Shown piece after piece: positions 432 to 64,000 of a stretch of DNA of 64,000 nucleotides. A program made the position numbers and the translations under genes. Below the pieces are notes generated by a model. It worked only from the letters and a program-made list of their open reading frames with translations, made no database searches and was not told where the DNA came from. Positions within the stretch are counted from its first letter, which is position 1, and each line of letters begins with the position of its first letter. This DNA comes from Butyricicoccus pullicaecorum DSM 23266 (lineage in GTDB: Bacteria > Bacillota > Clostridia > Oscillospirales > Butyricicoccaceae): contig NZ_FUXW01000011.1 in NCBI RefSeq assembly GCF_900167005.1, positions 1-64,000 on the forward strand. Reading direction: 5' to 3'.

Positions 432-3400
432 TTATTGCAGTTTGAGGGTCATGATCAGCTCGCCGGCCTTGACGGTCGAGCCTTCCTTGATGAGAACCTG
501 ATCGACCGTACCGCGGATGCGGGCGACGATGTTGATTTCCATCTTCATGGCCTCGATGACCGCGACGACCTGGTTTTCCTCGACCGGGTCGCCCGGCTTG
601 ACGTTCAGCTTGGAGATCATGCCGGGGATGGACGAGCCAACCTGGCTCTTGTCGTCGGGGTCGGCCAGCGTGACCGGACGCACCTTGGATACGGCGTCCT
701 TATCGGGCACAGCGACCTCGCGGCGCATACCGTTGAGCTCGAACTGCACGTTGCGCGTGCCGTCCTCGTTCATATCGCCCAGACCGATGTACTTGATGAC
801 CAGGGTCTTGCCGTCTTCAATGTTGATCTTGGTGGTCTCACCGAGCGCCATACCGTTGAAGAAGACGTGGCTGCCCATGCGCATGATGTAGCCGTAGGAC
901 TGACGATAGCGGCAGTAATCTTCGACAACCTTGGGGTAGAGGCACCAAGAGATGACCGAGCGGTTGGTGGGATTGGGCGAGAACTTTTCGACTTCACGGC
1001 GTGCCGCGTCAAAGTCGATCGGCGGCAGCAGTTCGCCCGGGCGGCATGTGATGGGCTCTTCACCCTTGAGCACGATCTTCTGCAGATCTTCGGGGAAGCC
1101 CCACGAGGGCTGACCCATCATGCCCTTGAAGTAGGCGACAACCGAGTCGGGGTAGGTCAGTGCGCTGCCGCGTTCGAGGATATTTTCCGGGGTCAGACCG
1201 TTCTGCACCATGAAGATTGCTAGGTCACCGACCATCTTGGAGGAAGGCGTAACCTTAACAATATCGCCCAGCATGTGGTTGACCGAAACATACATGTTTT
1301 TGACATCCTCGAACTGGTGGATCAGACCAAGGCTCTCGACCTGAGAGCGCAGGTTGGTGTACTGACCGCCAGGCATCTCATAGCGGTAGATGTCGGTCGA
1401 GGGATTGCGGATGTCGGCTTCGAACTGGGTATAGCGCTTGCGCACATCCGACCAGTAATCGGACAGGTACTGCAGCTGATGCGGGTCCAGTCCGGTGTCA
1501 CGCGGCTGACCCTGCAAGGCGGTGACGATGGCGTTCATGGACGGCTGGCTGGTGGTCGAGGACATGGAGTCGATTGCGCAGTCCACGATGTCTACACCGG
1601 CCTCGGCAGCCATCAGGTAGGTTGCAACCTGGTTGCCCGAGGTGTCGTGCGTGTGCAGATGGATGGGCAGACCGACCTCGTTTTTGAGTGCGGTGACCAG
1701 TTTCTTGGCTGCGTAGGGCTTGAGCAGACCGGACATGTCCTTGATGCACAGCAGGTGCGCACCGCGCTTTTCCAGTTCCTTGGCCATATTGATGTAATAC
1801 TGCAAGGTGTATTTATCGCGCTTGGGGTCTAAGATATCGCCGGTGTAGCACATGGTCGCCTCAAGCAGCTTGCCCTGTTTGAGTACCTCGTCCATGGCGA
1901 TTTCCATGCCCGGGATCCAGTTGAGCGAGTCGAAGACGCGGAATACGTCGATGCCCGACTGTGCGGCCTCGCGGACGAAGGCGCGGATGAGGTTGTCCGG
2001 GTAGTTGGTGTAGCCGACCGCGTTGGAGCCGCGGAGCAGCATCTGGAAGGGGATGTTGGGAATCTTCTTGCGCAGCAAGTCCAGACGTTCCCAGGGGGAT
2101 TCGTGCAGGAAGCGGTAAGCCACGTCGAAGGTCGCACCGCCCCACATTTCCAGCGAGAAGCAGTCGTTGAGGATTTCTGCCGTGCCGGGTGCACCCTTGA
2201 CCATGTCGCGGGTACGTACACGGGTGGACAGCAGCGACTGGTGTGCGTCGCGCATGGTGGTATCGGTAATCAGCAGCTTTTTCTGATCGAGTACCCAGTC
2301 GCGCACAGCCTCGGGACCCTTGGTGTCAAGCAGCTGCTTGAGGCCGGTGCACTTCGGCGGCGTGCTCTGATAGGGTGGGAAGCGCGGAATGTCCAGCTGA
2401 CGGCGCTCGGCAGACGGATTGTCCACCTGAATCTGTGCGATGTAGCGCAGTACCTTGGTAGCGCGGTCGCGGCCGGTCTGGAACTCAAACAGCTCGGGCG
2501 CTTCGTCGATGAACTTGGTGTGACACTTACCGGCGCGGAAGGTCGGGTGGTTTAAGATGTTGGTGACAAACGGGATGTTGGTCTTTACACCGCGGATGTG
2601 CTCCTCACTGATAGCACGCAGCGCCTTGCGGCAAACCATGTCAAAGGTACGGTCCCAGCAGGTGACCTTGACCAGCAGCGAGTCGTAATAGGGCGAGATC
2701 GTCGCGCCGGTGTAGGCGTTGCCGCCGTCCAGACGTACGCCGAAGCCGCCGCCCGAGCGGTAGGAGGTAACGCGGCCGATGTCGGGCGCGAAGTTGTTGG
2801 CCGGGTCCTCGGTGGTGACGCGGCACTGGATGGCGTAGCCGTCCATGCGCAGGTTGGACTGATCGCCCATGCCGATCTCGGGCACGGACAGCGGTGCACC
2901 CTGTGCAATGAGAATCTGTGCGCGCACGAGGTCAATGCCGGTGACCATCTCGGTGACCGTGTGCTCGACCTGAATTCTGGGGTTCATCTCGATGAAATAG
3001 TGGTTGCCCTGCTTGTCCACCAAAAATTCCACCGTACCGGCCGAGATATAGCCGATATGACGGGCAACCTTGATGGCATCCTCGTACAGTGCCTGACGGG
3101 TTGCCTCGGGCACCGACCAGGCCGGTGCGAACTCGACGACCTTCTGGTAGCGGCGCTGGAGCGAGCAGTCGCGCTCGCCGAGGTGAACGATGTTGCCGTA
3201 CTGGTCTCCTAAAACCTGTACTTCGATGTGCTTGGGCTCGACAAGGTACTTCTCGATGAAAATATCCTCATTGCCGAACGCCTTCTTGGCCTCGCTCTTG
3301 ACGCGCTCGAACGCGGGAGCGACCTCTTCCGGGGTATCACAGCGCCGCATACCGCGGCCGCCGCCGCCACCGGCTGCCTTCAGGATGACCGGGAAGCCGA

Positions 3401-55218: not shown

Positions 55219-55335
55219 TGCATTCATTATCTTCAACCAGCAGGTATAAACCAAATATGCGCGGCTGCAAGTCGTGGATATGCTTGGTTGTCTGAAATAT
55301 TAACACCCAAAAGGTGGTATAAAGGAGAAAGAGAA

Positions 55336-56379
55336 ATGAAACAGAGCAAAAAAAGAGTCCTCGCAGCAGTCCTCAGTGGTATGTTTATGATCGGCTCTTT
55401 CGCTGGATGCGGCGGAGGAACCACCACAGATTCCACAGCCGATTCCCAAAACACGACAGCCACCGAAACGACGACCAAGGATCGTTCGGACATGACGATC
55501 AAGGTTGTGTTGAAAACGCTTGCCTCTGAGTATTGGCAGTATGTCCAGACCGGCTGTAAAGCGGCTGGCCGTGATCTCGGCGTAAACGTTGAAGTTTTGG
55601 GTGCAACCTCCGAAACTGCTTACGAGGAGCAGATCCAGATCATCGAAACCACGCTCAATGCCTCTGATACCGACGCAATGGTCGTGGCTCCGTTACAGGC
55701 CGACAGTGTAGCAAATCAGATCGCAAACACATCGATTCCTGTTGTAGCAATCGATACGCAGGTTGATTCCGATAAGGTTTTGAGCTTTGTTGGTTTCGAT
55801 AACGAAGAGATGGCTGAACTCGGTGGTAAGGCTGCGGCAGAAGCTGCTAAGGAAGCTGGTTGGACGGAGATCACGGCAATTGGTATTGCAGGCGTACAAG
55901 GCGACTCCACCTCTGAAGCACGTATGAAGGGTTATCAAGCTGGTATTGAAGCAAGTGGCGGCACTTTCCTGATGGACGAGCTGCAATATGCGAACTCCAC
56001 CGCCGATCAGGCTGTAACTTGCATGGAAGCCATCGTACAGAATCACCCTGAAGGTGTCTCGATTATCTTTGCCAACAACGATGACATGGCAATCGCAGCG
56101 AAGCGCGTTGTCGAAGGAAACCCCGCTTACGAAAACACTATTTTCTGCGGATGTGGTGGTAATACCGCTGCAATGGAAGCAATCCTCAACGGTGAAGAAA
56201 CCATGACGGTTGCAGTTGACGGTTATGACGTTGGCTACCGTGGCGTGCAGGCAGCGGTCGAAGCACTGGAAGGCAAGACTCCTGAGAAGTTCATCGCATC
56301 TCCCGCAACGATTGTTACGATTGAGAATGCAGAAGAGCATCTCGCAGAAGTACAAAAGAAGGAAAACGATACCGTATAA
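55336..56379 (+). CDS. sugar-binding lipoprotein, module 2
   Basis: 347-residue Peripla_BP_4 lipoprotein (lipobox SFAGC), like the one at 38427: VVLKTLASEYWQYVQTGCKAA, VVAPLQADSVANQI, AIDTQVDSDKVLSFVGFDNEEMA, FANNDDMAIAAKRV and CGCGGNTAAMEAI. ATG at 55336 after AGGAG; the longer frame starting at 55288 has no binding site. Again there is no transport partner beside it. Confidence 0.9.
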   Translation: MKQSKKRVLAAVLSGMFMIGSFAGCGGGTTTDSTADSQNTTATETTTKDRSDMTIKVVLKTLASEYWQYVQTGCKAAGRDLGVNVEVLGATSETAYEEQIQIIETTLNASDTDAMVVAPLQADSVANQIANTSIPVVAIDTQVDSDKVLSFVGFDNEEMAELGGKAAAEAAKEAGWTEITAIGIAGVQGDSTSEARMKGYQAGIEASGGTFLMDELQYANSTADQAVTCMEAIVQNHPEGVSIIFANNDDMAIAAKRVVEGNPAYENTIFCGCGGNTAAMEAILNGEETMTVAVDGYDVGYRGVQAAVEALEGKTPEKFIASPATIVTIENAEEHLAEVQKKENDTV

Positions 56380-56462
56380 ACCCATATAATCTTTTTTCAG
56401 GAACAGCATACTCTCTCTTTATCCACATAAAAATGTAAACTCTCTCTTTCTTAATGCAAACG

Positions 56463-56502
56463 AACTCCGATGTCGTGCGATTGTGCGGCATCGGAGTTTT
56501 TT
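56463..56502 (+). terminator. terminator of module 2
   Basis: AACTCCGATG / CATCGGAGTT followed by TTTT. Confidence 0.8.
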
Positions 56503-56546
56503 GTGCATAAGATCTGCTGGATTGGAACAAAAAGAGGGATAAAAAA

Positions 56547-56775
56547 TCACTCCGCCCATGTAGAATGCGCAGACGGGGTGGTGAAAGGATGGATTGGTAT
56601 TTGAATCCGATTAAAAATGAGAGAAATGATGAGTGCAACCACAAAACCAGTGGTACCAACAATGGTTTCCATCATCGTCCAGGTCTTGAAGGTGGCCTTT
56701 TCATCCAGGCTGCACAATGACTTAACCAGCCAGAAGATAGAGTCATTGAAGTACGAGAATACCAGTTGGATCGGA
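56547..56775 (-). pseudogene. C-terminal scrap of a GntP-family gluconate permease
   Basis: The minus strand encodes FNDSIFWLVKSL ... ATFKTWTMMETIVGTTGFVVALIISLIF and a stop at 56547. This is the final two helices of a GntP-type H+/gluconate symporter; the other 85 percent of the gene is gone and the reading frame before residue FNDS no longer resembles the family. Confidence 0.75.
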
Positions 56776-56920
56776 TTAGATGATTCGAACGGCTGGATTA
56801 TGACCTTTTCCGGTTTTTCTCGAATAATGAGATCGACTTACAGATGCTTGTCTTCATCTTTGATTAATACATGGAGGCCTTTATATGGGGACTCTTCTTT
56901 TTTGAAATAGGACGACCGAT
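56776..56920. other. debris between two pseudogenes
   Basis: About 145 bases with no recognisable gene; it joins two unrelated gene fragments on opposite strands and so probably holds an old deletion or rearrangement junction. Confidence 0.5.
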
Positions 56921-57190
56921 ATGGGTTGCGCACGGTCGGTGATATCGGATGACGTGGTGCTGATGGATAATATCAATTGCGGTGAACCCATGTGCATTGG
57001 TACACCGGAGGACGTGCGTCGTCAACTGCAGTCCATTATTCAGGCGACCAAGGGACGCGGAATTATCCTCAGTTCAGGCTGTACACTCGGTGCCAATACC
57101 AAGCCGGAAAATATGGAAGCCCTGATTCAGGCAGCACGTGAGTTCGGCACAGAAGAACGACTAAAAACTATGGAATATAGCCAAATTTAA
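56921..57190 (+). pseudogene. C-terminal fragment of a URO-D gene
   Basis: Encodes the last 80 or so residues of a URO-D superfamily protein: LMDNINCGEPMCIGTPEDV, then GRGIILSSGCTLGANTKPEN and MEALIQAAREFG. The barrel before it is missing. An ATG at 56921 exists but without a clear ribosome binding site. It is the fifth URO-D-type sequence in the window. Confidence 0.75.
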
Positions 57191-57339
57191 TGGCCTTGCA
57201 ATTGTAACATAAAAAGGGTATTCTAAGGGAAAATAAGGCCATAAACAGGGCATATACGGTATTTGTTTATATAATTTGTTTCACGTGCGTATTGCATGTA
57301 TCGGTCTACTGAAACTACCTGGATAAAGGAGAATTTTCT

Positions 57340-58026
57340 ATGAAACGTTCGGAGATCAACAAGGCATTGAAAGAGCTGGAAGCAATGTGCGAGAAGTATT
57401 GCCGCAAGCTTCCACCGTTCTGCCATTTCACGCCCGAGCAGTGGCAGGACATCGGACACGAATATGACGAAGTCAGAGATTGCATGCTGGGTTGGGACAT
57501 CACCGACTACGGCATGGGTGACTTTGACAAGATCGGCTTTTCGCTGATTACCATTCGCAACGGCAACCAGCATATGAAAGACAAGTACCCCAAGGTATAT
57601 GCGGAAAAGCTGCTGTATCTGAAGGAAGGCCAGTATTCGCCCAACCACTTTCATTGGTATAAGACCGAGGACATCATCAACTGCGGCGGCGGAAATGTAC
57701 TGATTAAGGTTTATAACAGTCTGCCTGACGAGGAGATTGACTACGAATCCGATGTCACCGTACATACGGATGGCCGTACTTATACGGTGCCGGCTGGCAG
57801 CGTCATTCGTTTGACGCCTGGCGAGTCCATCCACATCCAGCAGTACATGTACCATGACTTTAACGTAGAGCCGGGTACTGGCAGTGTGCTGCTGGCCGAA
57901 GTGAGCCAGTGCAACGACGATAACACGGACAATCGTTTCAATCCGCCGGTTGGACGTTTCCCTGCAATCGAGGAGGACGAGCCGCCGTATCGTCTGCTGT
58001 GCAATGAGTATCCCGCAGCCAAGTAA
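57340..58026 (+). CDS. D-lyxose/D-mannose isomerase family protein
   Basis: 228-residue cupin sugar isomerase of the D-lyxose isomerase family, full length. Metal-site residues are in SPNHFHWYKTEDIINCGGG and the later HIQQYMYHDF. It interconverts D-lyxose and D-xylulose (and D-mannose/D-fructose in relatives). ATG at 57340 after AAAGGAG. It is 11 bases from the epimerase gene, forming a small sugar operon. Confidence 0.9.
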   Translation: MKRSEINKALKELEAMCEKYCRKLPPFCHFTPEQWQDIGHEYDEVRDCMLGWDITDYGMGDFDKIGFSLITIRNGNQHMKDKYPKVYAEKLLYLKEGQYSPNHFHWYKTEDIINCGGGNVLIKVYNSLPDEEIDYESDVTVHTDGRTYTVPAGSVIRLTPGESIHIQQYMYHDFNVEPGTGSVLLAEVSQCNDDNTDNRFNPPVGRFPAIEEDEPPYRLLCNEYPAAK

Positions 58027-58037
58027 AGGGGATTCCT

Positions 58038-58913
58038 ATGCTCTATGCCATTCAAAATAGCAAGCTGCTTTTAGCGGTAGATTCTCTGGGTGCGCAGATG
58101 ATGCACTTGCAGACCGCAGACGGACAGGAATATCTGTGGCAGGGCGATGCGGCGTATTGGCCTGACCGTGCACCGGTGCTGTTTCCGTTCATTGGACGAC
58201 TGACTCACAATCGTTATCGATATGAGGGACAAGAGTACCCGATGGGCATTCACGGCTTTGCGGCACAGCAGGAATTTACCTGCCGCACCCTTGACCCCGA
58301 CCGGCTTGTGCTGGAATTGACCGATAACTCGGAAACACATACGCAGTATCCCTTTTCCTTTTCGCTTGCCATTACCTATCAGCTGGTAGAAGATCGCGTT
58401 GAGATTTCGTACCAGGTTGAGAATCACAGTGAGAAAGTGATGTGCTTCGGCATCGGCGGGCACCCGGGATTCCGGGTACCACTGGAGGAAGGTGAGCAGT
58501 TCACCGATTATCTACTGGAATTTACCGGCAGCTGTCAGCCCGATCGAGTCGGCTTTACGCCCGAGGTCTACCTGAGCGGCCATGACCAGCCTTATTCGCT
58601 GGTCGAAGGTAAACTGCTTCCTCTGCGGCATGACTTGTTTGACGAAGATGCGATTATTTTGAAAAATATGTCTCGGGAAGTGACGCTGCGCTCGCGCACC
58701 TCTGCGCATGGCGTGCGGGTGACTTATCCCGACATGCCCTACTTGGGAATCTGGCATTGGCCTAAGACCGATGCGCCTTATGTCTGCATTGAGCCGTGGA
58801 CATCCTTGCCGGCACGTCAGGATATCATTGAGGATTTTGAATGCAAAAGTGATATGATTCATCTCATGCCCGGAAAGACGTACACAAATTGCTGGTGCAT
58901 TCGTATCTTTTAA
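58038..58913 (+). CDS. aldose 1-epimerase family protein (LacX-like)
   Basis: 291-residue galactose-mutarotase-like protein: AVDSLGAQMMHLQ, LFPFIGRL, IHGFAAQQEF, the catalytic histidine in GGHPGFRVPL, and the C-terminal EPWTSLPARQD. It interconverts alpha and beta anomers of an aldose, here probably the sugar handled by the adjacent isomerase. ATG at 58038 after AAGGGG. Confidence 0.9.
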   Translation: MLYAIQNSKLLLAVDSLGAQMMHLQTADGQEYLWQGDAAYWPDRAPVLFPFIGRLTHNRYRYEGQEYPMGIHGFAAQQEFTCRTLDPDRLVLELTDNSETHTQYPFSFSLAITYQLVEDRVEISYQVENHSEKVMCFGIGGHPGFRVPLEEGEQFTDYLLEFTGSCQPDRVGFTPEVYLSGHDQPYSLVEGKLLPLRHDLFDEDAIILKNMSREVTLRSRTSAHGVRVTYPDMPYLGIWHWPKTDAPYVCIEPWTSLPARQDIIEDFECKSDMIHLMPGKTYTNCWCIRIF

Positions 58914-59791: not shown

Positions 59792-60628
59792 ATGCGAGAT
59801 AGAGAAAATCAATTGTTCGCTTTTGTTGACCACCTTCGAGGAGAAGAACGTAGCGAGGGAACGACGCAAAAATATTTACGCGATGTACGCAAGTTTTTAA
59901 ATTGGCTGCAACAGAGAATGCTGAATAAAAATGAGGTTTCAAATTGGAAAGCACAGCTTTTATCCGACGGCTATGCGCCGGAAACTGTTAATTCGATGGT
60001 TGTTGCCCTCAATCGCTTTTTGAGCTTTATCGATCGAACTGATTGCCGCGTACGAACCTTGCGTATTCAAAGGAAGCTGTTTCGCCGTCAGGAACGCGAG
60101 CTGACCCGGTCGGAGTACGAACGACTGGTAGAGACTGCCAAAGGAACGGGAAAAGAGAGGCTTGCCCTGCTGTTGGAATCGATCGCGGCAACCGGAATCC
60201 GTGTGTCTGAGGTGCAGTATCTGACAGTGGAGGCTGCTAAGACAGGACGGACAGAAATCTCGCTCAAAGGGAAAATTCGCGTCATTTTACTGCCGCATAA
60301 ACTATGCCGTAAGCTGTTAAAGTATGCCAGAAAGCAAAAAACCGTCTCGGGACAGATTTTTCTGACCAGAAACGGAAAGTCGATGTCGCGCAAACAGATT
60401 TGGGCGGAGATGAAAGCGTTATGTAAAGCTGCGGGGATTGCAGCAGACAAGGTGTTTCCACACAATTTGCGTCATTTATTTGCAAGAGAGTTCTATAAAA
60501 TATGCCGAGATGTGGTAAAACTTGCCGATATTTTAGGGCATAGCAGTATAGAAACAACTCGCATTTACTTGCTCTCGACTGGTGAGGAACATGTAAAGCA
60601 ATTATCTCGATTAAGACTGATTTCATAA
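59792..60628 (+). CDS. tyrosine site-specific recombinase
   Basis: 278-residue integrase-type recombinase of XerC/D size. N-terminal SAM-like core-binding domain (1-95) and catalytic domain (100-278) with every key residue: R137 (ATGIRVSE), K161 (beta-hairpin KGKIRV), H224 and R227 (PHNLRH), H250 (LGHSS) and nucleophile Y259 (RIYLLS). The gene ends 8 bases before an inverted repeat that bounds a 270-bp segment. Recombinases of this kind next to such repeats (for example RecV with the cwpV switch of Clostridioides difficile) flip promoters. I infer that this enzyme inverts 60637-60906. Confidence 0.95.
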   Translation: MRDRENQLFAFVDHLRGEERSEGTTQKYLRDVRKFLNWLQQRMLNKNEVSNWKAQLLSDGYAPETVNSMVVALNRFLSFIDRTDCRVRTLRIQRKLFRRQERELTRSEYERLVETAKGTGKERLALLLESIAATGIRVSEVQYLTVEAAKTGRTEISLKGKIRVILLPHKLCRKLLKYARKQKTVSGQIFLTRNGKSMSRKQIWAEMKALCKAAGIAADKVFPHNLRHLFAREFYKICRDVVKLADILGHSSIETTRIYLLSTGEEHVKQLSRLRLIS

Positions 60629-60636
60629 GCATATAA

Positions 60637-60657
60637 GACAAAATCTATATTTTGTCT
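60637..60657 (+). repeat. left inverted repeat of the invertible segment
   Basis: GACAAAAT-CTAT-ATTTTGTC plus T: two 8-bp inverted arms around an asymmetric CTAT core. Its exact 21-base reverse complement is at 60886-60906. This is the layout of a tyrosine-recombinase crossover site. Confidence 0.88.
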
Positions 60658-60701
60658 CTAAAAGTACATATCATCACACAGTTTTCTTGATTATTAAGAA
60701 T

Positions 60702-60730
60702 ATATTATCACGATTTTGTTCATAATTCAA
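60702..60730 (-). promoter_or_regulatory. promoter inside the invertible segment
   Basis: Minus strand: TTGAAT (60725-60730), 17-base spacer, TAATAT (60702-60707). It reads left through the left inverted repeat toward the end of the recombinase gene. Confidence 0.75.
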
Positions 60731-60756
60731 GATTGGGATTGATTCTGAATATGCGG

Positions 60757-60792
60757 AAAAAGGCCAATCAAAAGTTACTTTTTTGATTGACC
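60757..60792 (-). terminator. minus-strand terminator inside the segment
   Basis: GGCCAATCAAAA / TTTTGATTGACC (one mismatch) followed on the minus strand by TTTTT. It insulates the promoter from transcription coming from the right. Confidence 0.7.
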
Positions 60793-60802
60793 TGTTTATC
60801 AT

Positions 60803-60842
60803 GCCTTCTCGTGCGTATCCAAACGTGCAGAAGGCCTTTTTT
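60803..60842 (+). terminator. plus-strand terminator inside the segment
   Basis: GCCTTCT ... AGAAGGC with partial inner pairing (GTGCGT/ACGTGC) and six T after CC. It stops rightward read-through in the present orientation. Confidence 0.75.
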
Positions 60843-60885
60843 ATTCGATTTTTTCCATTTGTTATATAAAACCGCAAGTAACCGT

Positions 60886-60906
60886 AGACAAAATATAGAT
60901 TTTGTC
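60886..60906 (-). repeat. right inverted repeat of the invertible segment
   Basis: A plus GACAAAAT-ATAG-ATTTTGTC, the exact reverse complement of 60637-60657. A further half-arm, ATTTTGTCGG, follows at 60916-60925. Confidence 0.88.
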
Positions 60907-60981
60907 CTGTTTTGCATTTTGTCGGAATGATGCTGCAAAGTGAATTACATAAATAAAAGAGGATGAGAGGAGATTCAATCT

Positions 60982-62130
60982 TTGCGTGAAACTTTTTGGG
61001 ATTATTGCCTGCGAACAGATAATCAAGTTTTATTGGCGCAGTGGGATGAGGCGCGAAACCTGCCGCAGACACCCAAGGCCATCAGCTATGGCAGCAAACA
61101 AGTTGTGTGGTGGAAATGTGATAAGGGTCATAGCTGGCAGGCAGCTGTGACGACTCGCACTGCAAATCACAGCGGATGCCCGTACTGTTCCCATCAGCGT
61201 GCATGGCCGGGAGAAACTGATCTCGCAACGTTGTATCCCAAGCTTATAAAAGAATGGGATTTTGCAAAAAATGGTGATTTGCAACCTGATCGGCTATTGC
61301 CCGGTAGTTCACGTAAGGTCTGGTGGAAATGTGCGCACGGTCATAGCTGGCAAGCTGTTATTAAATCTCGCGTACAGGGAGCAGGCTGCCCAGTATGTAC
61401 TAATCGAACCATTTTATCGGAAGAAAATAGTTTACAGGTTACCCATCCAAAGCTAGCTGAACAATGGGATTACAAAAGGAATCAATTGCTCACACCGCAG
61501 GACGTTGTCGCGGGTTCACATCGGCGGGTGTGGTGGTTGTGTGAGCATGGTCACAGTTGGCAGGCATCTATCGTTTCCCGGGCACACAGCGGTGCAGGCT
61601 GTCCGGTCTGCGCGGGAAAGGTCGTCATTCCAGGAGAAAATGATCTTGCCAGTCAGTTTCCGCAGGTTGCGCAGGAGTGGGATGCTGCGAAAAATGCACC
61701 GTTGACTGTGCAGCAAGTCTCGGCATACAGCAATTTGCGCGTCTGGTGGGTTTGCAATCTTGGACATGAATGGAAAACATCGATCGCAGCGCGTACGCAC
61801 AATATGACTGGCTGCCCATATTGTGCAGGGCGATTGGTACTTGCAGGTTTCAATGACCTGCAGTCCTGTTTTCCAGAGATCGCAATGCAATGGCACCCAA
61901 CGCTTAACGGTTCGCTCACACCGGATACAGTCACTTATGGCAGCAAAAAGAAAGTCTGGTGGCAGTGTCCGGAAGGACATGTCTGGCGGGCGGTGGTTTA
62001 CTCGCGCACTGGGGCAAAGAAATGCGGCTGTCCGGTCTGTGCCGGACGTGTCAAGCAGCATAAGCAAATAAAATATCGGAAAATGATCGGGGAACAGCAG
62101 CTTGCCCCTGCTGGGTCACGTTTTGAATAG
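60982..62130 (+). CDS. five-module zinc-ribbon (treble-clef) repeat protein
   Basis: 382 residues made of five tandem units of about 65-70 residues. Each has a WD...N lead, then VWW-x-C-x2-GHxW, an arginine, and a closing GCPxC: WKCDKGHSWQ...GCPYC, WKCAHGHSWQ...GCPVC, WLCEHGHSWQ...GCPVC, WVCNLGHEWK...GCPYC, WQCPEGHVWR...GCPVC. One Cys, one His and two Cys per unit should hold one zinc. The family (DUF4379-type) has no settled function; nucleic-acid binding is often supposed. TTG start at 60982, 8-10 bases from GAGGAGA. It is the first gene downstream of the invertible segment. No signal peptide. Confidence 0.82.
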   Translation: MRETFWDYCLRTDNQVLLAQWDEARNLPQTPKAISYGSKQVVWWKCDKGHSWQAAVTTRTANHSGCPYCSHQRAWPGETDLATLYPKLIKEWDFAKNGDLQPDRLLPGSSRKVWWKCAHGHSWQAVIKSRVQGAGCPVCTNRTILSEENSLQVTHPKLAEQWDYKRNQLLTPQDVVAGSHRRVWWLCEHGHSWQASIVSRAHSGAGCPVCAGKVVIPGENDLASQFPQVAQEWDAAKNAPLTVQQVSAYSNLRVWWVCNLGHEWKTSIAARTHNMTGCPYCAGRLVLAGFNDLQSCFPEIAMQWHPTLNGSLTPDTVTYGSKKKVWWQCPEGHVWRAVVYSRTGAKKCGCPVCAGRVKQHKQIKYRKMIGEQQLAPAGSRFE

Positions 62131-62159
62131 ATGAAATTTTAAGAAGGAGGGCAATAATT

Positions 62160-64000
62160 ATGCGATTAAAACGATTGATATCGGCGTTCATTGCGTGCGC
62201 AATGCTCGTAACATTCATGCCGATGCAGGCGTTTGCGGCACCAGAAGTGGATAACGCTGTTACGGCCACTAAAACTCTGGTAAGTGAAACGCCTGATGCG
62301 GATGGTAATTATACAATCCAGTTAACAGTGCAGGGCGATCCAGTTACGTCTACGACTACCTCCAAGGCGGATGTAGTTCTGGTTGTGGATAACTCTGGTT
62401 CTATGGCGAGTAGTGTAGGTGAACCTTGTAAAAATCCAAAAGAAAACTTTGAAGAAGGCGAAGGATTTTTAGGTCTCTGGAAAATTTACACTTGCAAAGA
62501 ATGCGGTGCAAGATATTCAAGTAGCTTATTAGGATGGCTGTGGGATACACGACCTGATGAGTGTACAGGTCAGATTGGTAGGGCACCTCGTATCGATACT
62601 GCAAAAGAAGTTAGCGAATCTTTTGCAAATAGCATTTTAAGTGGAGAAAACGAAAACAAAATGGCAGTCATTGGATTTTCACATTACAGTGATCACGGTG
62701 GAGCCAATGACAATAAGGCATTGTATGTTGAACAAGAGTTAACAGATAACTTGCCCCAAGTAGAACGTGCTATTGGTAAAATGTATGCTAATGGTGGCAC
62801 GAATTACTCTGCAGCTTTGCAGCAGGCATATAAGTGGTTAGTAGAAGAACGTGAAGATGCTACTCGTCCAGCTTATGTCATTTTCATTTCGGATGGTGCT
62901 CCTGGCTTAAGTGGTGAATCCATTGGCAAGGAAAGATGGGATGGCTCGGAACAAGCAGCTGCTCTGAAGGATGCGGGTGTGAATCTGTATACGATTGGCA
63001 TTGCTTTGGACGAGGATGAGGACGAATATTTGGAGTCCTTGGCATCAGATGCTCAGTACTATCGTAATGTAACAGGTGCTGACTATGATGAGGAACTGTC
63101 CGATATTCTCGATGAGTGGGCAGATGAAATCAATACCGTTCCTGCTGGTACGGATGCAGTCATGACGGATGTGATTTCTGATGACTTTACGTTGGTTTCT
63201 GGCAGCCAAAGCAAAGAATTGACGGTTGGTGATGATGGCAAAACGCTGACTTGGAATATCGGTGACATTCTTGAGAAAGAGACAAGCGTTCAGTTCAAGG
63301 TTCATCCCAATGACGGTCTGTCTGGTCAAGATCTTCACACTAATGCAGGCGTAGAACTGACATATATCGATGCTGAGGGTCAGGAGCAGACGCAAGATAA
63401 GGAGGATATTGGCGATCCTGTCGTTGATATTTCTGCTCCTGCTCAGAAACATGAAATTACAGTTGAAGTTGTAAATGGCTCTGCTAAGTACAATGATCAA
63501 GCCGTTTCTTCGCCTATTTCTATCAATGAGGGTGACGATGCTACAATCTCGTTTGAGGCGAATACTGGTTATGCACTGGATGCGGTAACGGTAGATGGAC
63601 AGCCGGCTGAGTTGACCGTAGGTGAGTACACTTTTGAGAATGTGACGGCTAACCATATTATCAATGTCGTTTTCGCTGAGGATAAGATCGGTGGCGAAAA
63701 TGGCGGCGGCGATGGTATCCCTGACAAGTACCAGGCAACTGCAACCTATAAGGTAGAGCATGGTGCTTGGAACGATGAAACAACTGAAGATAAGACTGAG
63801 GTTGTTACTCTGCTGGATGGTAATGGAAATTGGTCTGAATCCGGAAAGGGCACGTTGCAGCATAAGCCTGAGGTAGGTAATTGTCCTGCTGAAGGCTATG
63901 AAGAAGGCTCGTGGAATAAGAACGATACTGAAATCACAGCGGATACAGAGTTCATTTATAGCTATCGTGAAACTGGAGAGATTGATCCGCCGGTAACTCC
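62160..64000 (+). CDS. secreted VWA-domain adhesin-like protein (incomplete)
   Basis: Open to the window edge (613 codons seen). Signal peptide ISAFIACAMLVTFMPMQAFA with cleavage before APE. A VWA domain (about 65-320) has MIDAS D77-x-S79-x-S81, GGTNYSAAL and FISDGAPG. An insert right after the MIDAS loop carries four cysteines (C90, C112, C115, C135) with CKECG, like a zinc ribbon. Then come a DUF11/isopeptide-like segment (VMTDVISDDFTLVSGS, TLTWNIGDI), a Flg_new/InlB-type repeat (residues about 435-500) and a GDGIPDKYQATATYKVEHG repeat (from about 515). Such proteins are cell-wall adhesins; the anchor should lie beyond the window. ATG at 62160 after GAAGGAGG, 29 bases after the zinc-ribbon gene. 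Confidence 0.88.
   Translation, partial: MRLKRLISAFIACAMLVTFMPMQAFAAPEVDNAVTATKTLVSETPDADGNYTIQLTVQGDPVTSTTTSKADVVLVVDNSGSMASSVGEPCKNPKENFEEGEGFLGLWKIYTCKECGARYSSSLLGWLWDTRPDECTGQIGRAPRIDTAKEVSESFANSILSGENENKMAVIGFSHYSDHGGANDNKALYVEQELTDNLPQVERAIGKMYANGGTNYSAALQQAYKWLVEEREDATRPAYVIFISDGAPGLSGESIGKERWDGSEQAAALKDAGVNLYTIGIALDEDEDEYLESLASDAQYYRNVTGADYDEELSDILDEWADEINTVPAGTDAVMTDVISDDFTLVSGSQSKELTVGDDGKTLTWNIGDILEKETSVQFKVHPNDGLSGQDLHTNAGVELTYIDAEGQEQTQDKEDIGDPVVDISAPAQKHEITVEVVNGSAKYNDQAVSSPISINEGDDATISFEANTGYALDAVTVDGQPAELTVGEYTFENVTANHIINVVFAEDKIGGENGGGDGIPDKYQATATYKVEHGAWNDETTEDKTEVVTLLDGNGNWSESGKGTLQHKPEVGNCPAEGYEEGSWNKNDTEITADTEFIYSYRETGEIDPPVT

Follow-up and report, generated by a model that had tools for sequence, protein, structure and literature searches.

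The right-hand end of a 64,000-nt stretch of Butyricicoccus pullicaecorum DSM 23266 (contig NZ_FUXW01000011.1, positions 1 to 64,000; this whole stretch is hereafter called the window) carries a tyrosine recombinase gene, a short segment bounded by inverted repeats and a group of downstream cargo genes, which together are read here as a probable invertible-promoter switch (Table 1). The contig extends past the window, to position 74433. A first-pass annotation, made from the letters without database searches, had called the recombinase complete, and this is borne out by the full-length reading frame, by matches to PF00589 (E 8.7e-26) and PF02899 (E 1.4e-8), and by the intact catalytic residues R137, K161, H224, R227, H250 and Y259. 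The left recombination site begins 9 nt past the recombinase stop. Both sites are near palindromes in which 8-nt arms (GACAAAAT and ATTTTGTC) flank four core nucleotides, which read CTAT in the left site and the inverse of this in the right one. As had been described, they form exact ends of the segment, with 100% identity over 21 nt and a spacing of 228 nt, and the mapping of x to 121543-x upon inversion is arithmetically correct. The assembly has a single copy of the segment, and exact sites are found at this locus only.

Table 1. Features of the predicted switch; positions are those of the window, except where the contig is named
Feature	Position	Strand	Description
XerC/D-type tyrosine recombinase	59792-60628	+	278 aa; all six catalytic residues present
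Segment predicted to invert	60637-60906	none	270 bp; family span median 278
Left recombination site	60637-60657	+	GACAAAAT-CTAT-ATTTTGTC + T; core 60645-60648
Promoter	60702-60730	-	TTGAAT-N17-TAATAT, TG preceding the -10; points left (OFF)
Terminator-like hairpin T1	60753-60793	-	followed by T run; predicted to stop leftward transcription; fold and strict scan
Terminator-like hairpin T2	60803-60845	+	followed by T6 run; predicted to stop recombinase read-through in the present orientation; fold
Right recombination site	60886-60906	-	exact inverse of the left site; core 60895-60898
First cargo gene	60982-62130	+	382 aa, TTG start, five DUF4379 treble-clef zinc repeats
Second cargo gene	62160-64000, continuing to contig 66512	+	1450 aa, signal peptide (by eye), two VWA stretches, SLH repeats
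Third cargo gene, beyond the window	contig 66762-70322		1186 aa, LRR_5, VWA, SLH

Within the segment, T1 folds best on the minus strand (-16.1 kcal/mol, followed by TTTTTCC) and T2 on the plus strand (-17.7 kcal/mol, followed by CTTTTTTATT), and thus the earlier reading of two opposed terminators holds; T2 is bulged and was overlooked by the strict scan, which permits no bulge. The left-pointing promoter is present where it had been proposed. Between the end of its -10 hexamer and the segment edge there are 65 nt, the modal distance in the family described below, and it is this position, not the match to the consensus, that makes it credible. As the promoter at this position faces the recombinase, the claim that the switch stands OFF is likewise supported. 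A further scan of the minus strand between 59600 and 61100 yielded just one 5-pair hairpin, within the recombinase gene. No stop is thus visible for transcripts that would, in the OFF state, run antisense into this gene. On the cargo side, the zinc-ribbon and VWA genes of the first-pass annotation stand, although its extent fell short, since the operon has two SLH-anchored surface proteins. The first cargo protein matches DUF4379 with an E-value of 2.3e-99 and has no signal peptide by eye.

Relatives of the recombinase were drawn from 99 genomes near the window, 87 genomes of the family and 80 loci of named records. Those from the two genome listings were chosen by hand, and 145 distinct downstream regions were obtained, of which 122 had at least 550 bp. 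An inverted repeat was accepted at an effective length of at least 14 (length minus 2.5 per mismatch); this test was used instead of an exact-match shuffle variant, which also counted self-palindromes and was therefore uninformative. By this criterion, an inverted repeat lies downstream of the recombinase in 97 of the 122 distinct relatives, versus 4 of 2440 mononucleotide shuffles. Five segments from shorter regions brought the set to 102, from which five near-copies were dropped by hand, leaving 97 de-duplicated segments. The median distance from the recombinase stop to the start of the left repeat is 1 nt (from -10 to +15 in 81 of the 97), so that an antisense run into the recombinase gene might be possible across the family. 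The left repeat arms match one another at five or more of eight places in 96 of the 102 segments.

In tyrosine recombinases, strand exchange demands matched but otherwise free crossover letters. To escape circularity, the sites were re-found by their arms alone, and 88 cassettes passed the thresholds. Inverted identical 4-nt cores are present in 82 of these 88 and direct-only ones in none, while left and right cores taken from different cassettes agree in 3%. The count of distinct left cores came to 44, including one misreading, so that the cores are matched yet variable. The misreading stems from five of the six failures, near-identical copies from one genome (G094) that were read out of register. 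A greater core diversity within than between genomes was also considered and proved unsupported, with cores shared in 5 of 57 within-genome pairs (four of the five in G094) versus 2.3% between genomes. Among 395 sampled genomes with a completeness of at least 90%, at least 112 hold a relative of the recombinase at E 1e-60 or better, and the relatives include Intestinimonas butyriciproducens strain An565 (L125).

The promoters, too, are regular in their placement. For 70 of the 102 segments the best sigma-70-like match scored at least 10 (10.6% of dinucleotide shuffles did so), and the -10 ends of these promoters cluster at distances of about 65 nt from the edge of the segment. When promoters were required to lie 45 to 90 nt from an edge (97 de-duplicated segments, dinucleotide shuffles as control), 61 of the 97 segments scored at least 10, with 42 promoters facing the recombinase (OFF) and 19 facing the cargo (ON), versus 2.1% of shuffles. 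At a score of at least 9, the class of the window promoter itself, the count was 90 of 97 (65 OFF, 25 ON) versus 10.2%. Alignment of the whole inner segment agrees with the promoter-based orientation in 70 of 81 scored strong pairs, the two routes being partly dependent because the promoter lies within the aligned segment. Both orientations occur among the relatives, and most close pairs share theirs. Two cassettes of G094 align best to several others once reverse complemented. The clearest mirror pair, G094C2 and G094C13 from this one genome, scores 94 inverted versus 43 direct, with TTGACA...TATAAT inside the match; the largest of 3000 null scores is 33. Within the genus of the window, a cassette with DUF4379 and LRR/SLH protein cargo (G005C22) is ON by its sequence: hairpin-like repeats (by eye) are followed by TTGCGC-N17-TATAAT toward the cargo, 64 nt from the right edge. 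We take it as the predicted ON form of the plan seen in the window.

The places where contigs break point in the same direction. Contigs end 0 to 100 nt past the recombinase stop at 16 of 150 loci and within 100 nt before its start at none of the 150; when the regions were selected, some upstream stretches were trimmed at a distance of about 0.75 kb or more, so the first 100 nt are unaffected. In four of the 16 cases (G056C2, G093C33, L138 and L169) the contig ends within one or two nt of the site end, as judged by eye. Ends at the sites fit mixed orientations, since such a mixture would make an assembler stop.

The layout shared by most relatives, the inverted matching cores and the mirrored promoters at the same edge distance thus uphold the invertible-promoter switch that the first-pass annotation had proposed, and we give a probability of roughly 0.87 to the reading that the locus is a cis-encoded phase-variation switch, now OFF. 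The recombinase would bind the two palindromic-armed sites, swap strands at the matched 4-nt core and flip the 270-bp segment. In the OFF state, transcripts from the promoter would run leftward, in the direction of the recombinase gene and its 3' end, and read-through from the recombinase into the cargo would be blocked by T2. In the ON state, the promoter would face right with no terminator ahead and would transcribe the DUF4379 gene and the genes of the two SLH-anchored surface proteins, with T1 now blocking recombinase read-through. Of this scheme, the sites, cores, hairpins and gene order, and the mirrored promoter positions among relatives, can be read directly in the sequences; it is inferred that the recombinase acts on these very sites, that the segment here still flips, that the promoter is active and that it gives antisense transcription into the recombinase gene in the OFF state.

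Several observations weigh against this reading. The single assembly holds only the OFF orientation, and the inverted form was not observed in this isolate. Taken alone, the window promoter is weak, with 8 of 12 hexamer letters matched; a consensus scan that needs 9 of 12 does not list it (shuffles of the 1.5-kb region give a mean of 3.5 sites), and its score of 9.0 in the family scoring places it in the weaker class, outside the 61 strong ones. In addition, 25 of the 122 relatives have no inverted repeat by the criterion used, although some of them (e.g., G000C9 and G028C23) have diverged arms and yet matching cores. Eleven of the 81 orientation pairs conflict, two of which involve the window segment (L114 and L120). 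At least one terminator-like hairpin was found by the strict scan in only 49 of the 97 segments (versus 10.7% of shuffles). Finally, four of the 16 contig ends fall inside the recombinase gene, and multi-copy genes are an alternative cause of such ends.

The lone OFF orientation and the weak promoter match would also suit a fossil switch, in which the family inverts and this particular copy is locked OFF in the species, and the same genome does hold a recombinase-like fragment with ten stops near a degenerate site pair (contig C18). However, unused repeats would be expected to drift, and those of the window are exact over 21 nt and stand beside an intact recombinase, which makes a fossil improbable. 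We consider it less probable still that transcription starts outside the segment and that the flip makes or breaks a terminator, as in the control of cwpV described in portions of PMC2784873. The two terminator-like hairpins could be taken in this sense, but most relatives have a promoter within the segment, at a conserved edge distance, and whichever way the segment lies one of the hairpins faces right, so that read-through should be stopped both ways. Tyrosine recombinases often mediate excision or transfer of mobile elements, yet that the repeats serve this end and not gene control is the least probable reading of all: the amplified cassette of G094 and the extra direct site of some cassettes would fit it, whereas 82 of 88 site pairs have inverted cores and none direct ones only, viral contigs scanned for the site and for the recombinase gave neither, and phage records gave only distant relatives (best 43.8%, in an unannotated faecal contig).

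The surroundings of the switch and its copies elsewhere add some further observations. Judged from 55288-58913 of the window and 13316-16408 of L002, the cassette sits amid sugar genes, as assigned by Pfam on the left side and by eye for the rest. On the left are a D-lyxose isomerase and an aldose epimerase; the right side has a sugar-binding protein and an oxidoreductase, and similar binding proteins flank the cassette on both sides (by eye). A second cassette of the same genome (L045, G000:C9; recombinase at 2215-3048 of its contig, 73% identical) has DUF4379 genes flanking the recombinase, diverged site arms and a matched core, CAAC. Two more contigs (G000:C13 and G000:C15; L046 and L047) break off at the same residue within closely similar recombinase genes, and with these contig-end genes the window genome has at least four such recombinases. 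A dead switch may be present on G000:C18, where degenerate sites form a pair (361409-361678 and 361946-362215) near the weak recombinase-like match, itself interrupted by ten stops. G094 (L076, L079-L092) has at least 15 such recombinases (E below 1e-49), and several of its cassettes are near-identical over the whole segment, as if copied round the genome. Near the recombinase stop, G077C5 (L065), G009C34 (L078), G093C33 (L034) and L138 carry the left site once more in direct orientation (in the last two by eye and at contig ends) and so have more than two sites; such a copy could permit a small deletion or two flip lengths.

A scan of the large cargo proteins was made on 33 of 76, chosen by hand, plus the 1186-aa protein of the window locus (34 in total). 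The domains found were SLH (18), Flg_new repeats (11 to 12), LRR_5 (6) and VWA (4 to 5). Small first open reading frames (n = 53, Pfam) also match GGDEF, signal peptidase, Wzz and pilin-type models, one to three each. In the first slot behind the segment, two families recur: among 93 de-duplicated cassettes, the first downstream reading frame is DUF4379 in 15, a recombinase paralogue picked by BLAST and here called R2 in 12, and another gene in 66.

R2 was aligned for these 12 and for G029C1, where it comes second. The tyrosine and both histidines are lost in all 13, of which L110 aligns N-terminally only and is little informative; one R2 match to the expression used for the tyrosine lies far from the C terminus. 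None of the six catalytic residues is missing from the recombinases next to these 12 or from that of the window. Among nine R2, 37 alignment columns are invariant, 18 of 23 have a PRxL motif where active enzymes have PHNL, and one was predicted with a recombinase fold (predicted local distance difference test, pLDDT, 84.9; predicted template modelling score, pTM, 0.55; best PDB match XerA, E 8e-9). Because of these three features, R2 look kept and not decaying. A profile search of the 395 genomes, with at most six candidates scored per genome, found 18 clear members (at least 231 bits versus at most 201 for active enzymes). Seven of them lie directly behind a recombinase. An inverted repeat stands between the two genes in five of these (G134, G227, G356, G422 and G099C2c), none was found in G382C127, whose contig holds only a C-terminal recombinase piece, and G382C156 was left out. 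Three more lie further downstream of such a recombinase (G029 twice, G169C27), and two of the 18 contain an internal stop. The idea that R2 are confined to switches was rejected, as eight of the 18 have no recombinase in reach (upstream sequence covered 1.0 to 3.5 kb in seven of these and 59 nt in one); some of them precede apparent polysaccharide or surface-protein genes (by eye). In a tree of R1 (the active recombinases) and R2, each group clusters, with long branches and unsettled bootstrap, and R2 may have a single origin.

DUF4379 is present in 19 of the 99 genomes. The solved relatives found were all kinetoplastid mitoribosome proteins, both by sequence (5 of 5) and by fold at E 0.001 or better (8 of 8; model pLDDT 89.6, pTM 0.51). 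The window genome has further DUF4379 genes on contig C9, where two of them flank another recombinase, and on C27 and C34, where they stand next to SLH genes with no recombinase nearby. Both first-slot families thus appear to accompany surface operons, in many cases but not in all together with a switch. They are not strictly exclusive either, since one stretch (G169:C27, L276) holds a recombinase, a DUF4379 gene and an R2 with an internal stop. We read the first-slot protein as a putative nucleic-acid-binding regulator of the operon or the switch. The dead recombinase paralogue might bind at the sites of the active enzyme or form pairs with it; alternatively, the regulator could be the DUF4379 protein, with a fold otherwise solved, among the matches found, only on mitoribosomes. 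A more speculative extension, which we hold to be rather doubtful, is that the first-slot gene is made in the ON state only and feeds back on flipping or on elongation of the surface operon, forming with the OFF antisense promoter a two-sided memory circuit. If true, this would help to explain the excess of OFF segments (42 versus 19). A literature search of titles and abstract openings, with subscription papers and bioRxiv mostly outside it, found no dead-recombinase or DUF4379 gene placed first behind such a switch.

The usual way to detect invertons is through sequencing reads. The members of this recombinase family are so regular in their sites, cores and promoter placement that one assembly suffices to call a switch and its state, in common gut bacteria throughout an order. 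How a DNA switch is controlled by feedback is a question familiar mainly from fim, and R2, with its catalytic residues lost, its predicted fold kept and a conserved motif gained, is a testable candidate for such control.

In E. coli, fimE, fimS and fimA follow one another as tyrosine recombinase, invertible promoter and surface structure. The window switch resembles fim in its adjoining tyrosine recombinase, in a segment of similar length with the promoter inside, and in its surface cargo; the recombinase is intact, the inverted sites have matching cores and the promoter is predicted inside the segment by its family position. Orientation may affect recombinase transcription here, and for fim portions of PMC2784873 describe that it can alter transcription of the recombinase gene via the fimE terminator. 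Unlike fim, there is one recombinase here instead of two, the cores are matched and variable, the cargo is of the SLH/VWA type, and DUF4379 or a dead recombinase comes first in 27 of 93 cassettes. The first-pass annotation had likened the layout to the RecV/cwpV switch of C. difficile, with which it does share a tyrosine recombinase, 21-bp inverted repeats, a surface-protein cargo and the Clostridia. According to portions of PMC2784873, however, cwpV has a 195-bp segment with imperfect repeats, a promoter outside it, a proposed control by termination and recV elsewhere in the genome. The window has its predicted promoter inside the segment and its recombinase adjacent, so the resemblance does not hold at the level of layout, which is fim-like.

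Inversions adjoining recombinases are already known in Clostridia (portions of PMC5903667). Inverton group 139 with invertase group 35, as described in portions of PMC11892184, comprises 33 invertons, 32 of them in Clostridia and nearly all near a tyrosine recombinase; its Intestinimonas butyriciproducens inverton, 255 bp by coordinates, shifted in orientation over culture passages. Compared by description, the window switch agrees with this group in size, lineage and recombinase adjacency, while cores, terminators and first cargo gene are not described for the group in those portions of PMC11892184. The published I. butyriciproducens inverton, sought by its coordinates, was not recognised among the order-wide matches listed. 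Group 139 may overlap with the recombinase family of the window. A regulator-type gene behind an invertible promoter also has a parallel in Bacteroides, where UpxY is a NusG paralogue. There, UpxY antiterminator genes are oriented such that an inverton promoter can drive them (portions of PMC11892184); in the present family the first slot is taken by DUF4379 or a dead recombinase instead of UpxY. Thus, the kind of switch is already known and is new for this locus, where it is well supported and probably working, and what is new beyond that is the regular grammar of the family and the gene in its first slot.

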